Below are positions 1,443-26,920 of a stretch of 42,917 bases of DNA, piece after piece. Source of the stretch: a virus; the IMG/VR virus record IMGVR_UViG_3300020122_000173, positions 1 to 42,917 of that record; one strand, written 5' to 3'. A model generated the notes under the pieces. That model worked only from the letters and a program-made list of their open reading frames with translations. It did no database searches and was not told the DNA's origin. Made by a program: the position numbers and the translations under genes. The number at the start of each line of letters is the position of its first letter. Within the stretch, counting starts at the first letter, position 1.

Positions 1443-3593
1443 TCATTTCGCCCCTAGTTGTGAATACTTAGGAAACGTGCCCATCAGCCGCTCAAACTCG
1501 CTTTGTTTCAGCGGCGTCTTCCAATCGTTGAAATTATAAACCACCAGGTACTGGCGCAACTGACCGCGCCACTTAAACCCGCGGGGATCGTCGGCGCACT
1601 CCAGGTATGGCACGCCAGCCTCGCGCAGCTCGCGCGAGATCATGCCGGACGGCGTGCCTCGCGCGTACTTGCTCCCCAGCATGGAGTGCACGATAGCTGG
1701 GAACATAAGCGCTAGCTCCTCGGGCGTATACCAAGGCCGGATGTCGTAAAACCCTGCGTTGTCCAGTGTCTTGCGCGCGATCGCTGCCAGTGTCGCGTTG
1801 CCGCTCACCTCTGCAGTCCGCGCCCACGCCGTAGCTGAGTCCAGCCACAGCTTGACCGTCTGCTCTGTCGCCGTCCGCATGTCCTCAGCTAAGTGCTGCA
1901 CTGGCGTCAGCGACTCCACGTAGGCCATGTATTTTTCAGCGCTCAGCGGCGCAGCGGCGGGCGGCTTCCAGCCCTTCAGATCCAGCCCAAGCAGGTAGCC
2001 CAGCAACGCCTTCGGGCCGCCCGCGACCTTCCAGGGCTTCACGTAATCGTAGTAAAACGCCGCTTCGCGTTTCTTAGGGCAGTCCACTACAATCATGCGC
2101 CGGTCGTCGGGAGCAAACGCGCCCACGGCGCGCTTGTTCGACGTGATGCAGTACATCGTGTACGTGTTAATTTGCCGCACGGGACGGTATTTCTCATTCA
2201 TCGGCCGCTTCAGATCGCTAATCAGCGCCTTCAACTGCTCGCTCGCCGACTCCACGTCTTCGCCCTTGGCTTCGTTGATAAGAGCGAACAGCGAGCGCTC
2301 CAGCCAGCCCTGGAACTCGCCAGCAAGCGAGCTGGGCGTCACGTCCACGCCGTAAGGCGCGAACGCATCGCGCACGATCTCGCCCCATAGCGTCTTGCCA
2401 CAGCCTTGCGGCCCAATCAGCACCAGCGCCAGCGGCACTTTATCGGCCGGGTTCTGCGCCTTGTATGCCAGCAGCTTGAGCGGCAGTGACTGCTGCTCCT
2501 CGCCGCGTAGATTCTGGAATAGGAATCTACTCAGCTCCAAGAACGGCGTCACGTCACCGCTGCCCGCATCCCAGCCCGTCCACATATTCAACGCCGGCCG
2601 GCCGTGCTCGCCCATGACTGTTGGCCCCTCGCCTGGGCGGAACAGGATCTCGCCGAAGCGCTGGGCGTGGGGGTGCGTCAGCCATGTCTTGGCGATGCTG
2701 ACGCGTTTCGGTTCGCTGCGCTGCTTCGCCCCTACGCTCAGGTGTGTGAGCGTAGAAAACCGGCTCCCGTTGATGAAATTGTCTTTCGATAGGAACCCGC
2801 GGCGCTCCATATCATAGACCAGCCCTTCGGCTTCGATCCACGCGCACGATTTGTTGAGCGAAATTACTTTGCGGTCCAGGTCGTTGAGCTTCTGCGCTCT
2901 CTGCAGCAACGCCATGAGCGCGTCCGGCCCTTGCGCGTGCAAGAAATCATCTATCCCGGTTTTCGTCTCGCCATCGTGTGGCAGCTCTACGACGTAGCAG
3001 CGTGCGCCCAGTTCGCTCAGCCGCTCCACAAGTCGCGCCTCGGCCACGAGGATTTGAGGATTTAGGCTGCGATCGCTATCAAATACGGTGTACTGGTCGC
3101 GCCCGCGCCAGTTAATCGCGGCCAGCTCGGGTAACAGTATACCATCCGGTCCCCAGTTATATACGCCACCAACGCCTATCGTTGGAAACCCTGCAAGTGT
3201 CGCTGTGGCCGCTTTAAGCTCCCCCTCAGTAATCAGGCACGGCTCACCAGGATCGGCTAGGAGCGGCTGCCAATCTAATACGGGTGGGAAGTAGGCCCTG
3301 CAGCCGCTTGCCCGTGGCTGGCCATATTTGCCCGCCTCGTGGCGCTTAAATCCGCCGGAGCGCTTGGGTGCGTCGTTTAGATACCTGACGCGGCAGAACG
3401 GGCCACGGTCGAAGTGCACGAGCGCCCCGGCTGCGTCAAAATAGGGAATCACTATTCCAGGCTCGGCGCGGAACTCGGGATAGATCGCAGCGGCGCTAGG
3501 TGCTTCGAACAGCTGCAGACGCTCGGCGCCCTCAACCGAGACGCCCCAGCGTGCGAGCTGGGCGAGCGCTTTGTCGCTCCAAGTAGGTGGCAC
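1443..3593 (-). CDS. Primase-helicase: TOPRIM-like region plus SF3/D5-type ATPase
   Basis: 716 aa, the probable replicative primase-helicase. The N-terminal half has TOPRIM-like elements: ITEGELKAA with Glu at about 123, then VFDSDR at about 171-175 and GIDDFL at about 213-218, as in DUF3854-type phage proteins. The C-terminal half has Walker A GPQGCGKT at about 394-401, a candidate Walker B FALINEA at about 435-441 and YCITSNKRA further on, the layout of DUF5906/D5-like SF3 helicases. It should prime and unwind phage DNA for the family A polymerase encoded in the same leftward unit. The start is GTG at 3593 with GGAG ten bases upstream; the frame is open further but has no ATG or GTG. It ends in an ATGA overlap. 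Confidence 0.85.
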   Translation of the reverse strand: MPPTWSDKALAQLARWGVSVEGAERLQLFEAPSAAAIYPEFRAEPGIVIPYFDAAGALVHFDRGPFCRVRYLNDAPKRSGGFKRHEAGKYGQPRASGCRAYFPPVLDWQPLLADPGEPCLITEGELKAATATLAGFPTIGVGGVYNWGPDGILLPELAAINWRGRDQYTVFDSDRSLNPQILVAEARLVERLSELGARCYVVELPHDGETKTGIDDFLHAQGPDALMALLQRAQKLNDLDRKVISLNKSCAWIEAEGLVYDMERRGFLSKDNFINGSRFSTLTHLSVGAKQRSEPKRVSIAKTWLTHPHAQRFGEILFRPGEGPTVMGEHGRPALNMWTGWDAGSGDVTPFLELSRFLFQNLRGEEQQSLPLKLLAYKAQNPADKVPLALVLIGPQGCGKTLWGEIVRDAFAPYGVDVTPSSLAGEFQGWLERSLFALINEAKGEDVESASEQLKALISDLKRPMNEKYRPVRQINTYTMYCITSNKRAVGAFAPDDRRMIVVDCPKKREAAFYYDYVKPWKVAGGPKALLGYLLGLDLKGWKPPAAAPLSAEKYMAYVESLTPVQHLAEDMRTATEQTVKLWLDSATAWARTAEVSGNATLAAIARKTLDNAGFYDIRPWYTPEELALMFPAIVHSMLGSKYARGTPSGMISRELREAGVPYLECADDPRGFKWRGQLRQYLVVYNFNDWKTPLKQSEFERLMGTFPKYSQLGAK

Positions 3594-3651
3594 GCGCGCC
3601 TGTCTCCGTGGCGTGATAGACGCGCAAGGTAGTGTCAGGGAGCCACAGATG

Positions 3652-3741
3652 TCAACGCAGTACCGAAGAACCTAGCGTCGCGCAGAGCACGAACCACACG
3701 CCGACGACGCAAAGCATGAACGTATTTGGGTCGTCTATCAT
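3652..3741 (-). CDS. Tiny membrane protein (29 aa)
   Basis: The ATG at 3741 overlaps the TGA of the 75-aa gene (ATGA). The 29-residue product is a single hydrophobic segment (FMLCVVGVWFVLCATLG) with an acidic N-terminus. The function is unknown. It is the last gene before the primase-helicase. Confidence 0.5.
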   Translation of the reverse strand: MIDDPNTFMLCVVGVWFVLCATLGSSVLR

Positions 3742-3965
3742 CCCACCACCTCCGCGCGCACTTCGCCCATCTTCGCCCGACGACACTGCGCAAGCTCGAT
3801 CCTGCAGCGCATACGATCGGCGGGTGAAAGCTCCAGGTAAATGCGATTCAGCATGTCGAGCCGCTTGCCTTCTTTGCCCCACTTCAACGCGGCGAACTCG
3901 TGCGCCAGGGCGACTGGGAGGGGCCGCTGCTCGGCGCTGTATAGAACAGAGAATTGCGTTGTCAT
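3738..3965 (-). CDS. Hypothetical protein (75 aa)
   Basis: The ATG at 3965 overlaps the TGA of the repeat-protein gene (ATGA). The product is amphipathic (ALAHEFAALKWGKEGKRLDM, RMRCRIELAQCRRAKMGEVR) and probably helical. No family is recognised. Its position inside an unbroken chain of overlapping genes supports expression. Confidence 0.65.
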   Translation of the reverse strand: MTTQFSVLYSAEQRPLPVALAHEFAALKWGKEGKRLDMLNRIYLELSPADRMRCRIELAQCRRAKMGEVRAEVVG

Positions 3966-4639
3966 AGCGGAAGCTCCTCCGGTTCTTCATCCGACAGCCA
4001 AAGAACGAGTCGATCAAGCTGCCATTTTTCTTCGGCCGACCTAGCGGCCGACCAAGCGGCCGACCTAGCGGCCGACCTAGCGGCCGACCAAGCGGCCGAC
4101 TCAGCGGCCGACCTAGCGGCCGACCAAGCGGCCGACCAAGCGGCCGACTCAGAGGCCGACCAAGCGGCCGACTCAGCGGCCGACCAAGCGGCCGACTCAG
4201 CGGCCGACCAAGCGGCCGACCAAGCGGCCGACCAAGCGGCCGACTCAGAGGCCGACCTAGCGGCCGACTCAGCGGCCGACCTAGCGGCCGACTCAGAGGC
4301 CGAGGAAATTTCGCCGCGTGCATACTGGCGCGCTGCTATGACCGCGTTGCGCGGTGCTTTGTTCACGGTGTCATATTTCTCGTAGAGACCCAGCACCCGC
4401 GCTGCGCAGTCAGCCAGCCATAGACGCAAGCGCCGCTCTACGTCTTTGTCAGTCTTGGCGAGCGCAGAAGCAGCCCACACAAGATCATTGAACGTGACGC
4501 CCGCTTTGACGGCCTTGCGCGCGTCGATCTTGTGGCCGTTCCACTTACGCGGCCCGCCCAGTAGCTTAGTGACTGCCTTGCTGCGCTCCGGGCACGGCTT
4601 CAGCTCGCGTAATTCGTCGTATGTGAGTCCGATTGTCAT
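3962..4639 (-). CDS. Repeat protein with tandem S-A-A/S-W/R/E tetrapeptides (225 aa)
   Basis: The start at 4639 is set by an ATGA overlap with the 34-aa gene. Residues 1 to about 112 form a non-repetitive domain (YDELRELKPCPERSKAV, KTDKDVERRLRLWLADC). About 22 tandem four-residue units follow: Ser-Ala-Ala or Ser-Ala-Ser, then Trp, Arg or Glu. A short tail (KWQLDRLVLWLSDEEPEEL) closes the protein. Ala/Ser-rich tetrapeptides with one large residue should make a long helix whose W/R/E stripe drifts slowly round it. Similar SAAR-type repeats occur in scattered phage and bacterial proteins of unknown function. No enzymatic motif is visible. Confidence 0.8.
   Translation of the reverse strand: MTIGLTYDELRELKPCPERSKAVTKLLGGPRKWNGHKIDARKAVKAGVTFNDLVWAASALAKTDKDVERRLRLWLADCAARVLGLYEKYDTVNKAPRNAVIAARQYARGEISSASESAARSAAESAARSASESAAWSAAWSAAWSAAESAAWSAAESAAWSASESAAWSAAWSAARSAAESAAWSAARSAARSAAWSAARSAEEKWQLDRLVLWLSDEEPEELPL
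4034..4304. repeat. 12-bp tandem repeat, 22 steps
   Basis: GGCCGA occurs 23 times at exact 12-bp steps from 4034 to 4298. The three bases after each GGCCGAC are CTA (6 times), CAA (9) or TCA (7), and three units have AGA in place of GCG before the next GGCC. The unit length is a multiple of three, so the array encodes tetrapeptides in the gene at 3962-4639 and leaves other frames open too. A CGGCCG palindrome recurs in most units. Confidence 0.97.
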
Positions 4640-4740: not shown

Positions 4741-5162
4741 TTGTAGACCGCAACGCCGCGCGTATAGCACGAGTCGAGTTCCACACCTGCAGGAATGTCG
4801 TCCTTGCGCACGAGGTACAGCGCACAACCGCGAGGATCCCCTTGAATGTATGGTTGCCAGTCTGGATATTTCTCGGCGATTTTAGCGAGCTGCTTCAGCG
4901 CGCCGCGTTCGCGGTCAGGGATGCGCGTGTAAATAGGCTTGTTCTGAGTGTGAGGGTGCCGCTCCTCGTATGGCGCGCCAGCATCGTCGTACACAAATTC
5001 GCCGTTTTCTTTCCGGCCGCGCACCAAGCACCACGAAGCATAATTATTCGAGTCGCCACACTCCAGCTCGTGCCAGCGGTGCAGCGTCATGCTGATTCGC
5101 CGTAGTTTCGTCGCGTCCCAGCGGTCAAAGCCTGCCTTTACCAAATCATCAATCGCGTTCAT
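4737..5162 (-). CDS. Conserved-looking hypothetical phage protein (141 aa)
   Basis: The ATG at 5162 overlaps the upstream TGA (ATGA). The sequence is well ordered: an N-terminal KLRRISMTLHRWHELECGDS, then IPDRERGALKQLAKIAEKYP and WQPYIQGDPRGCALYLV. The QGDPRGCALYL-like end is familiar from uncharacterised tailed-phage proteins, but no function is known to me. It lies upstream of the small membrane and repeat-protein genes. Confidence 0.8.
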   Translation of the reverse strand: MNAIDDLVKAGFDRWDATKLRRISMTLHRWHELECGDSNNYASWCLVRGRKENGEFVYDDAGAPYEERHPHTQNKPIYTRIPDRERGALKQLAKIAEKYPDWQPYIQGDPRGCALYLVRKDDIPAGVELDSCYTRGVAVYK

Positions 5163-5545
5163 CTCCCGTTCTCCCGTCTTACGTCAACCCGCGCCAACCA
5201 GCCGGCGCCGCTCACTGTGTAAGGTACTCGCCACACTGCATCCCCACCGCGCCGACTCAGAGTCGGCCGGAGGGCCTTGAGCCTATGCAGCAACGTGGCC
5301 GCGTCAAGTCCGGCCGTTACCGGGCCGTGGTACACGATCGCCAGCTCGCGCAGGTGCTCGGCTACACCGGGCAGGCCCGCTATGACTGTCTCCCCTGGGT
5401 AGTCTGGCGCTTGCTCCTTGTCCGTGTCCGCCTCGGGCTCGGTCAGCTGGGGCTCGCGGTACAGCCGGACCCGCACGCGCCACTGTGCGGTGCGGGCGTC
5501 GCTGCTGGATGGCGTGGGCGCGCCGCAGTGTGGGCAGGGGGTCAC
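5159..5545 (-). CDS. Hypothetical protein with one CxxC motif (128 aa)
   Basis: The GTG at 5545 overlaps the stop of the upstream gene (GTGA at 5542-5545), so translation probably begins VTPCPHCGAPTPS. The CPHC pair could hold half a zinc site. The middle is acidic (EPEADTDKEQAPDYP) and the C-terminus is mixed alpha/beta. No family is recognised. Confidence 0.7.
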   Translation of the reverse strand: MTPCPHCGAPTPSSSDARTAQWRVRVRLYREPQLTEPEADTDKEQAPDYPGETVIAGLPGVAEHLRELAIVYHGPVTAGLDAATLLHRLKALRPTLSRRGGDAVWRVPYTVSGAGWLARVDVRRENGR

Positions 5546-5817
5546 GGCCGCACGTACTCCGCTTCTAGTTCGGCATACAACGACTCTTCTGTGCTTTCTG
5601 GCTCGGGGCCGTTGCAGCACGCGCCCGGATGGAACTCAGACGTTGAAAGCGCGGAATACAGATTTGAATCTTGTCCGCCGTGGTAATCGGCAGCAAACCA
5701 GTAGATAGCGCTTTCAATGTCAAATTCGTAGTTTTGCCACGCCTCGCCCGTTTGCTCCTCGATGGAGCCACGTAGCAGCGTGCGCATTTCTTCTGCAGTA
5801 GGGTCTAAGATTTTCAT
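5542..5817 (-). CDS. Hypothetical protein, first gene of the left arm (91 aa)
   Basis: The ATG at 5817 follows GGGAG with about six bases of spacing; the frame extends upstream without another SD. The core (ESAIYWFAADYHGGQDSNLY) looks conserved in tailed phages, function unknown. As the promoter-proximal gene of the leftward unit it is probably among the first expressed. It ends in a GTGA overlap. Confidence 0.75.
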   Translation of the reverse strand: MKILDPTAEEMRTLLRGSIEEQTGEAWQNYEFDIESAIYWFAADYHGGQDSNLYSALSTSEFHPGACCNGPEPESTEESLYAELEAEYVRP

Positions 5818-5884
5818 TTCACATCTCCCATCCCGCAAACTATGCGCCCGATCGGCCGGAGAGTGCAAGCACTATCTGCTACTA

Positions 5885-5893
5885 TGTTATCAC
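5885..5893 (-). promoter_or_regulatory. Candidate leftward promoter element TGATAACAT
   Basis: On the minus strand the sequence reads GTGATAACATAG about 70 bases upstream of the first leftward gene. TG-n-TAACAT resembles an extended -10 box. No good -35 is evident at 17 bp. The same nonamer occurs rightward at 6062-6070. Confidence 0.3.
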
Positions 5894-6034
5894 GATATGT
5901 TACAATGCAGTTTGTGGTTCGTAGTAGCGTTGTTGTGTGTCAAGGGGCTGCTACGTGGCGTGGTGTCGCGGTTGGCTGTGGCATAAGGTAGCGAACAGTG
6001 TTCGGCGTGGTCCGGGCGGAAAGTCTTACCATTC

Positions 6035-6106
6035 AACAATGCTATTACTAATATGATACTATGATAACATTACCCTATTATTACTATATTATATATTAGC
6101 ATTGTT
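6035..6106. repeat. Inverted repeat flanking the AT-rich core
   Basis: AACAATGCTA at 6035-6044 is mirrored by TAGCATTGTT at 6097-6106. With one further mismatch the arms extend to ATTxAACAATGCTA. The 52 bp between them are almost entirely A and T. This geometry suits an origin, a regulator binding site or a DNA-unwinding element. Confidence 0.7.
6062..6070 (+). promoter_or_regulatory. Candidate rightward promoter element TGATAACAT
   Basis: The plus strand reads CTATGATAACATTACC inside the AT-rich core. It is the same nonamer as the leftward element at 5885-5893, in opposite orientation, as expected for divergent promoters or a shared regulator site. It is far (over 500 bp) from the first rightward gene, so a role in an origin is an alternative. 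Confidence 0.25.
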
Positions 6107-6548
6107 CAATTCACAAAACCTGATACACACACGGAAGCTAGGTCAGCTTTGCTGCCATGTTCGTAGTGAGGTTTAGCGCCCCGAGCCGGCGAAATTCCCA
6201 CGCGGCCACGCTGGCGACGTTAGCTAAGCTATTGCATCTGCTACCTAAACCACGCAACGTAGCGCCGTAGCACCACGCCACGCCGCAGCCAGCTCGGCCC
6301 GTTCAGCTCACTCGATGGCCGCGCCACTCAGTAGCTAAGCCCTTGAGCCTCTTGGTTTCTTCGTAACTTAGCCAACGGGACCCACTTGGCGGCCGAGCCT
6401 TCCGGGGGAGTGGTTCGATAGAGTTGGGATGGGATGGCGCTAAGGGGAGGAATCGCGATATATACCAAAAATCCCAGCCGCTACAATAACTTAGCAACGC
6501 AGTAGCACAGTAACGCGGAAAATAAACCGCACAATCTCCGTAATCACC

Positions 6549-26389: not shown

Positions 26390-26920
26390 ATGGGCGGCAT
26401 TATCGGCGGCGTAATCGGCGGCATTGGCTCGATCTTCGGCGGTCAGCAAGGCGAGAACGCAGCGTTTCATCCTTTCAACGTGCTCAACAAAGGGCCGATC
26501 GGGCAGAACTACCTTAACAAAGGCGGCGCTGCGAACGACATGATCGCGCAACTTCTCGGCACCGAGCCGATGAAGTCCGGCACACAGAATGCTTACGACA
26601 ACTACCTGAACTCGACGGGCTACAACTTCCGCCTTGCGAGCGGCAGCAACGCGATCACTGGAAACATGGCCGCGAAGGGGCTGCTGAATAGTGGCGCGAC
26701 CGGCAAAGCATTGACCGCTTATGGGCAGGATCTCGGTAGTGGTTACTTCAGCAACTATCTTGACCAACTCGGTAACCAAGCCAACCGTGGCATACAGGCT
26801 GGCGACGTGCTTGCAAAGGCAGGCGGTGCGGGCGCCAGCGCTGCGGCTCAATCAGCGGCAGGTGGCGCGGGCGGCGCGGTTGGCGACATCATGGGCATAT
26901 TGCCCTTCCGGGGGTTGTAA
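26390..26920 (+). CDS. Probable ejection / internal virion protein, small (176 aa)
   Basis: Gly-rich hydrophobic N-terminus (MGGIIGGVIGGIGSIFGGQQ), then LNKGGAANDMIAQLLGTEPM and a helical C-terminus (LDQLGNQANRGIQAGDVLAK). This is the pattern of small podophage internal or DNA-transfer proteins (P22 gp7/gp20-like set by position). It is probably ejected with DNA and helps form the envelope channel. Confidence 0.65.
   Translation: MGGIIGGVIGGIGSIFGGQQGENAAFHPFNVLNKGPIGQNYLNKGGAANDMIAQLLGTEPMKSGTQNAYDNYLNSTGYNFRLASGSNAITGNMAAKGLLNSGATGKALTAYGQDLGSGYFSNYLDQLGNQANRGIQAGDVLAKAGGAGASAAAQSAAGGAGGAVGDIMGILPFRGL

Follow-up and report, generated by a model that had tools for sequence, protein, structure and literature searches.

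The array gene and its surroundings

The window, which is the whole stretch of DNA that was analysed (IMG/VR virus record IMGVR_UViG_3300020122_000173, 42,917 nucleotides), carries a coding minisatellite of 12-bp units, which forms the repeat portion of an Imm5-like accessory protein of a phage (Table 1). The tetrapeptide array was confirmed, with TRF calling the repeat at 4033–4303 with a period of 12 and without indels, and the exact 18-mer TCGGCCGCTNNGTCGGCC occurs 19 times in the window compared with 0 occurrences in 100 dinucleotide shuffles. On the coding strand, the units read [GCT or TCT] [TGG, AGG or GAG] TCG GCC with zero deviations over the 22 x positions, x being the variable residue of the peptide unit (W in nine units, E in seven, and R in six). 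The original prediction spelled the final two bases of the unit as GC or AG; they are GC or GA. Reading all units on the coding strand confirmed that variation is limited to the TGG/AGG/GAG codon and one Ala/Ser codon (GCT/TCT, varying three times and each time preceding GAG), while the Ser TCG and Ala GCC codons are invariant and silent changes are absent throughout.

Table 1. Features in and around the array gene of the window.
Feature	Position	Strand	Remarks
Array gene	3962..4639	-	225 aa; ATG at 4637-4639; stop TGA at 3962-3964 overlaps next ATG (ATGA)
N-terminal domain, residues 1-110	4310..4639	-	conserved PC and DLxW motifs; 19-relative alignment
Tetrapeptide array, 22 x-S-A-(A/S) units	4033..4304	-	12 bp per unit; x = W, R or E; no silent change
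C-terminal helix (EEKWQLDRLVLWLSDEEPEELPL)	3962..4032	-	by alignment, counterpart of the relatives' 'SAQxxxL' tail
Small downstream gene, 75 aa	3738..3965	-	start overlaps the stop of the array gene
Primase/helicase-type protein (DUF3854, DUF5906, VapE-like)	1443..3593	-	second gene downstream of the array gene

The frame of the array gene is taken as coding because it has a Pfam Imm5_like match upstream of the array that continues into it, aligns with 19 relatives starting at the ATG, and shares the ATGA overlap with the next gene. The Imm5_like profile (PF21805, cut-off 25 bits) scored 35.6 bits against the whole protein and 29.3 bits against the N-terminal 110 aa alone, where the match lies in residues 65–110. 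It spans profile positions 5–87 of 129, and the remaining profile falls in the array region. Since the match continues beyond the N-terminal domain and into the array, the repeat probably arose by expansion of the helical, alanine-rich end of the fold, and on sequence grounds the gene belongs to Imm5_like and carries an extended repeat. The N-terminal domain and the array-bearing relatives belong to the sequence family represented by PF21805 and by PHROG 18326, 8332, and 3416, which are of unknown function. PF21805 is described as a “putative immunity” family only and is matched here by part of its profile. No partner toxin gene for the Imm5_like protein was identified, and neither sequence nor fold searches returned a homologue of solved structure; among viral folds, the best match (E 1e-3) is to an uncharacterised protein of a phage, with a weaker match to a protein named Imm-5-like. 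NCBIfam matches were rejected as low-complexity noise, far under the cut-off. Searches of the window found no tRNA or Rfam features and no RecT, ERF, or tyrosine integrase domains, and PADLOC gave zero matches. A second short 12-bp tandem repeat, GGCGGCATTATC in 2.8 copies, is located at 26393–26425.

Distribution of related arrays

Degenerate scans of IMG/VR detected arrays of the W/R/E type in more than 100 phage contigs. The WSAAWSAA pattern matched at least 119 stretches, some by chance or in the wrong frame and most of them true arrays, and the ESAARSAA pattern, in which the third codon position was left free for Glu, Arg, Ser, and Ala, gave 108 matches. Searched against one genome per prokaryote species, the WSAAWSAA pattern found mostly unrelated sequence and few true arrays, so the arrays appear to be mainly phage-borne. 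The N-terminal domains that precede them form at least three groups: Imm5-like domains (in some cases with DUF7666 ahead of them), domains of an “IFEGLP” group, and a small number of singletons. DUF7666 precedes the arrays in L148, where it is over the cut-off, and in L028 and L069, where it is under the cut-off. No paper on these arrays, and none on DUF7666, was found in the literature covered, most subscription journals lying outside it. The W/R/E array system is widespread among phages and apparently undescribed.

The window itself has no close relative in these data. The exact DNA of its array is found nowhere else in IMG/VR, its N-terminus yielded no relatives by degenerate scan, by tblastn in INPHARED, or by blastn, and a terminase search returned distant phages only. 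Cultured carriers include the Pseudomonas phage AF and the Xanthomonas phages KPhi1, phiXaf18, and XapPhi1-6. Phage AF (L339 2438–3046, AF_046) has 18 units of GCA GCC [TGG/AGG] [GAC/GCC] with zero silent changes; its units contain two variable residues that are linked. The array gene of XapPhi2 (L340) reaches the end of its linear record, and its seeming truncation is an artefact of the record. The cultured phages bear on the suspicion that the pattern was produced by assembly, through collapse or chimerism of the repeat in short reads. The 271 bp array exceeds common short reads, and most relatives are metagenome contigs. Nevertheless, the same pattern appears in phage AF and related arrays are carried by the cultured Xanthomonas phages, which makes an artefact very improbable as the source of the pattern. 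The copy number of the window array is uncertain.

Variation at x and at silent sites

The original prediction treated the missing silent changes as evidence against ordinary decay. The 22 steps, however, are not 22 independent observations, and the window array alone proves little because its units are copies of one another and only three of 12 base columns vary; three random columns would avoid the three fourfold-silent columns with a chance of 0.38. The support was therefore sought in the relatives, where 70 arrays with 1,044 x-S-A-A units were compared. Only identical arrays were dropped from this set, so some of its arrays are related. The units were selected as SAA, which excludes amino-acid change in the scaffold by construction and makes the comparison one between x and silent sites. 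The WSAAWSAA search demands two adjacent Trp units but forces neither variation at x nor silent agreement.

The mean within-array heterozygosity was 0.607, 0.405, and 0.051 at the first, second, and third bases of x, compared with 0.019 at the third base of Ser, 0.019 at that of Ala, and 0.037 at that of the second Ala, i.e., variation at the first two bases of x is about 20-fold above that at the fourfold-silent scaffold bases. The x codon is variable in every array and restricted to the NNG type, chiefly TGG, AGG/CGG, and GAG; less common residues, for example Gly (GGG) and Lys (AAG), have codons a single base away from these. Codon usage in the arrays departs from that in the gene sections that precede them, with GAG:GAA at 794:10 for Glu compared with 520:739 upstream, and AGG in 579 of 745 Arg codons compared with 81 of 846. 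In the N-terminus of the window protein, AGG is used in 0 of 11 Arg codons. Trp is present in 73 of 74 arrays; this residue was required by the WSAAWSAA search, but the ESAARSAA search, which did not require it, still yielded mostly W-containing arrays.

No silent scaffold variant was seen in 50 of the 70 arrays. The silent substitutions that the original prediction had set against its own reading do exist in relatives, at a low level in the other 20 arrays and in larger numbers in the Xanthomonas isolates, so homogenisation is not universal. In L040, L066, L080, and L107, silent variants are spread across x types, as they often are, and such spreading needs either exchange within the 12-bp unit or recurrent mutation of x. 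L103 is a counter-example with a silent variant almost completely associated with an x type. No rule for the order of W, R, and E was detected, the order being close to random, and there is no excess of lag-1 identity, whereas single-unit slippage alone predicts such an excess. There is also no constraint on charge balance, as the Arg fraction and the net charge vary more than multinomial.

The simplest account would be a recent neutral expansion from two or three unit types, too young to have collected silent changes and with x unselected. The window array alone, with its three variable columns and the chance given above, agrees with it. The same contrast, however, recurs in 70 arrays with 24 majority scaffold codon types (from TCAGCAGCA to TCGGCCGCT), and this recurrence strongly disfavours neutral expansion; neutral simulation gives comparable variation at x and silent sites and often drops W, and the NNG lock of the x codons also speaks against it. 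The idea could be rescued if all arrays were recent transfers of a single one, which the differing scaffold codons contradict. We consider neutral expansion improbable.

Turnover between close relatives

Variation in unit number, which the original prediction proposed to look for in related phages, and in unit order was found between relatives with 94–99.8% identical flanks. L013 and L105 differ by one mismatch in 450 upstream bases, yet their arrays differ by three indels (four, three, and eight codons) and one x change. The pairs L033/L056, L150/L157, and L020/L118 are 93.6–96.7% identical upstream and differ in unit numbers and orders, and the scaffold codons are identical within L033/L056 and within L020/L118. 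Unit number and order thus evolve faster than the flanks. When the arrays of close pairs are aligned, nearly every difference exchanges one W, R, E, or G codon for another, often with two bases changed together (e.g., GAG/TGG), which indicates the replacement of units; one scaffold codon change among the substitutions is silent. Between the arrays of BsXeu269p/3 and KPhi1, one codon was gained and two silent and two amino-acid changes occurred, with few changes in the flanks.

These pairs also bear on a second alternative, in which the x codon is mutated on purpose by a diversity-generating element or another directed mutator. The confinement of variation to two bases per unit in almost every array is what such a mutator could produce. 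The base changes seen between relatives include T/A, T/G, and G/A and are not at adenine only. Several observations speak against a mutator. Close relatives differ by gains and losses of whole units and by two-base swaps, no DNA motif is shared, and the scaffold codons differ freely between phages. Even with E values of up to 1 allowed, the reverse transcriptase profile PF00078 matched nothing in the window, which may be a fragment, and a mutator-free model is sufficient (see below). Directed mutagenesis is accordingly considered about as improbable as neutral expansion, if not slightly more so, and the “targeted diversification” offered by the original prediction is unnecessary.

Proposed mechanism

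The pattern is probably explained by fast turnover of units, with exchange at the scale of single bases, together with selection that favours a mixture of residues at x. In this reading, units are continually recopied by replication slippage or unequal exchange whose breakpoints may fall at any position of the 12-bp unit, and this recopying would erase silent differences. Selection acting at the protein level would meanwhile maintain W, R, and E together. As Trp has a single codon, it would fix G as the last base of the x codon, and exchange would spread that G to the Arg and Glu units. A toy simulation started from TGG/AGG/GAG units (24 replicates) shows that such a process is sufficient and is not a fit to the data. 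Under neutral turnover, x and silent sites varied similarly, with no excess at x, and W was often lost. Under selection with base-scale breakpoints, variation reached 0.66 and 0.43 at the first two bases of x and 0.02 at the third base of Ser, with 99% GAG. The recent expansion or homogenisation with selection on W, R, and E put forward in the original prediction is thus supported by the relatives, through the contrast in 70 arrays and the reshuffled arrays of close pairs, and not by the window alone.

Comparison with known repeat systems

In the zinc-finger array of PRDM9, the ligand-contact codons escape homogenisation (PMC3890296). The phage arrays resemble it in process, with no kinship implied: both consist of tandem coding units whose copy number changes rapidly, and in the phages the number and order of units vary between close relatives, while the scaffold is homogenised and variation is concentrated at a few amino-acid-changing codons, both in the 70 arrays and in the window. 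They differ from PRDM9 in being phage genes with 12-bp units rather than 28-codon zinc fingers and in having one main variable residue drawn from about three amino acids. New copies of protein repeats are reported to diverge fast under relaxed and positive selection in what has been called horizontal evolution (Persi, Wolf and Koonin 2016, PMC5120217). The copies described there are later fixed and conserved, whereas the units of the phage arrays keep turning over. Diversity-generating retroelements share with the phage arrays the restriction of diversification to chosen codons, but no reverse transcriptase was found in the window, and the arrays change mainly by shuffling of units.

If the proposed mechanism is true, a large set of unannotated phage genes evolves by a PRDM9-like push-pull, in which copying erases silent differences and selection keeps one residue varied. 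With short arrays, short phage generations, and carriers available in culture (Pseudomonas phage AF, Xanthomonas KPhi1, XapPhi), the turnover of a coding minisatellite and the selection on it would be directly measurable.

Predicted structure and possible function

AF2 modelling of the window protein gave an N-terminal domain with a pLDDT of about 70–91 and two long helices at residues 113–161 and 165–215, with pLDDT falling to about 46–62 in the array and rising to 76–81 at residues 201–220. Long helices were also predicted for one relative (106–143 and 149–197). In both models the N-terminal domain is fairly reliable, while the helices are of low confidence within the array and of better confidence near the C-terminus. 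The models tentatively suggest that the array forms an Ala/Ser helix arranged as an out-and-back hairpin with a W/R/E stripe.

The fast-changing stripe flags the array proteins as candidates for functions in conflict. Our favoured reading, in which the array gives an immunity-like protein an interaction surface that changes fast, has about one chance in three in our estimate. A setting of conflict is proposed because the anchoring domain resembles an immunity-protein family, and the arena would most likely be an intracellular contest between phage and host or between phages, although this is a weaker inference. In the full version, a reshuffled Ala/Ser helix with a mainly three-letter W/R/E code at one position would provide a changing surface for recognition, or for telling self from non-self, when phages are in conflict with hosts or with other phages. 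This version is unlikely, but if the conflict-surface reading is true, the arrays would be a prokaryotic-virus counterpart to PRDM9-style array evolution.

The main rival to an interaction surface concerns function only and takes the array as a tunable helical spacer, i.e., an adjustable stalk in which W, R, and E only keep the helix stable and soluble, so that the mixture at x would reflect loose biophysical limits and not recognition. The predicted long helices, the random order of W/R/E, and the drift of composition between arrays are consistent with a spacer. In contrast, W occurs in nearly all arrays, and K, Q, D, L, and A would be expected at x far more often than they are observed. A spacer is less likely than not.

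Neighbourhoods of the array genes

No conserved neighbour or partner gene was found across the neighbourhoods of the array genes. A VapE-type gene also lies close to the array genes of Xanthomonas phage KPhi1 and phage ctUtU524. The proximity of an array gene to a gene of the VapE/primase type was noted for window 1443–4639, L332, and L342, three phages that are otherwise distant. In L160, a pentapeptide-like repeat protein (LRSADLSYANL) is encoded about 3.2 kb from the array gene. L060 carries two adjacent paralogous array genes (4853–5485 and 5608–6159) whose N-terminal DNA is 99% identical and whose arrays are different, which suggests a local gene duplication.
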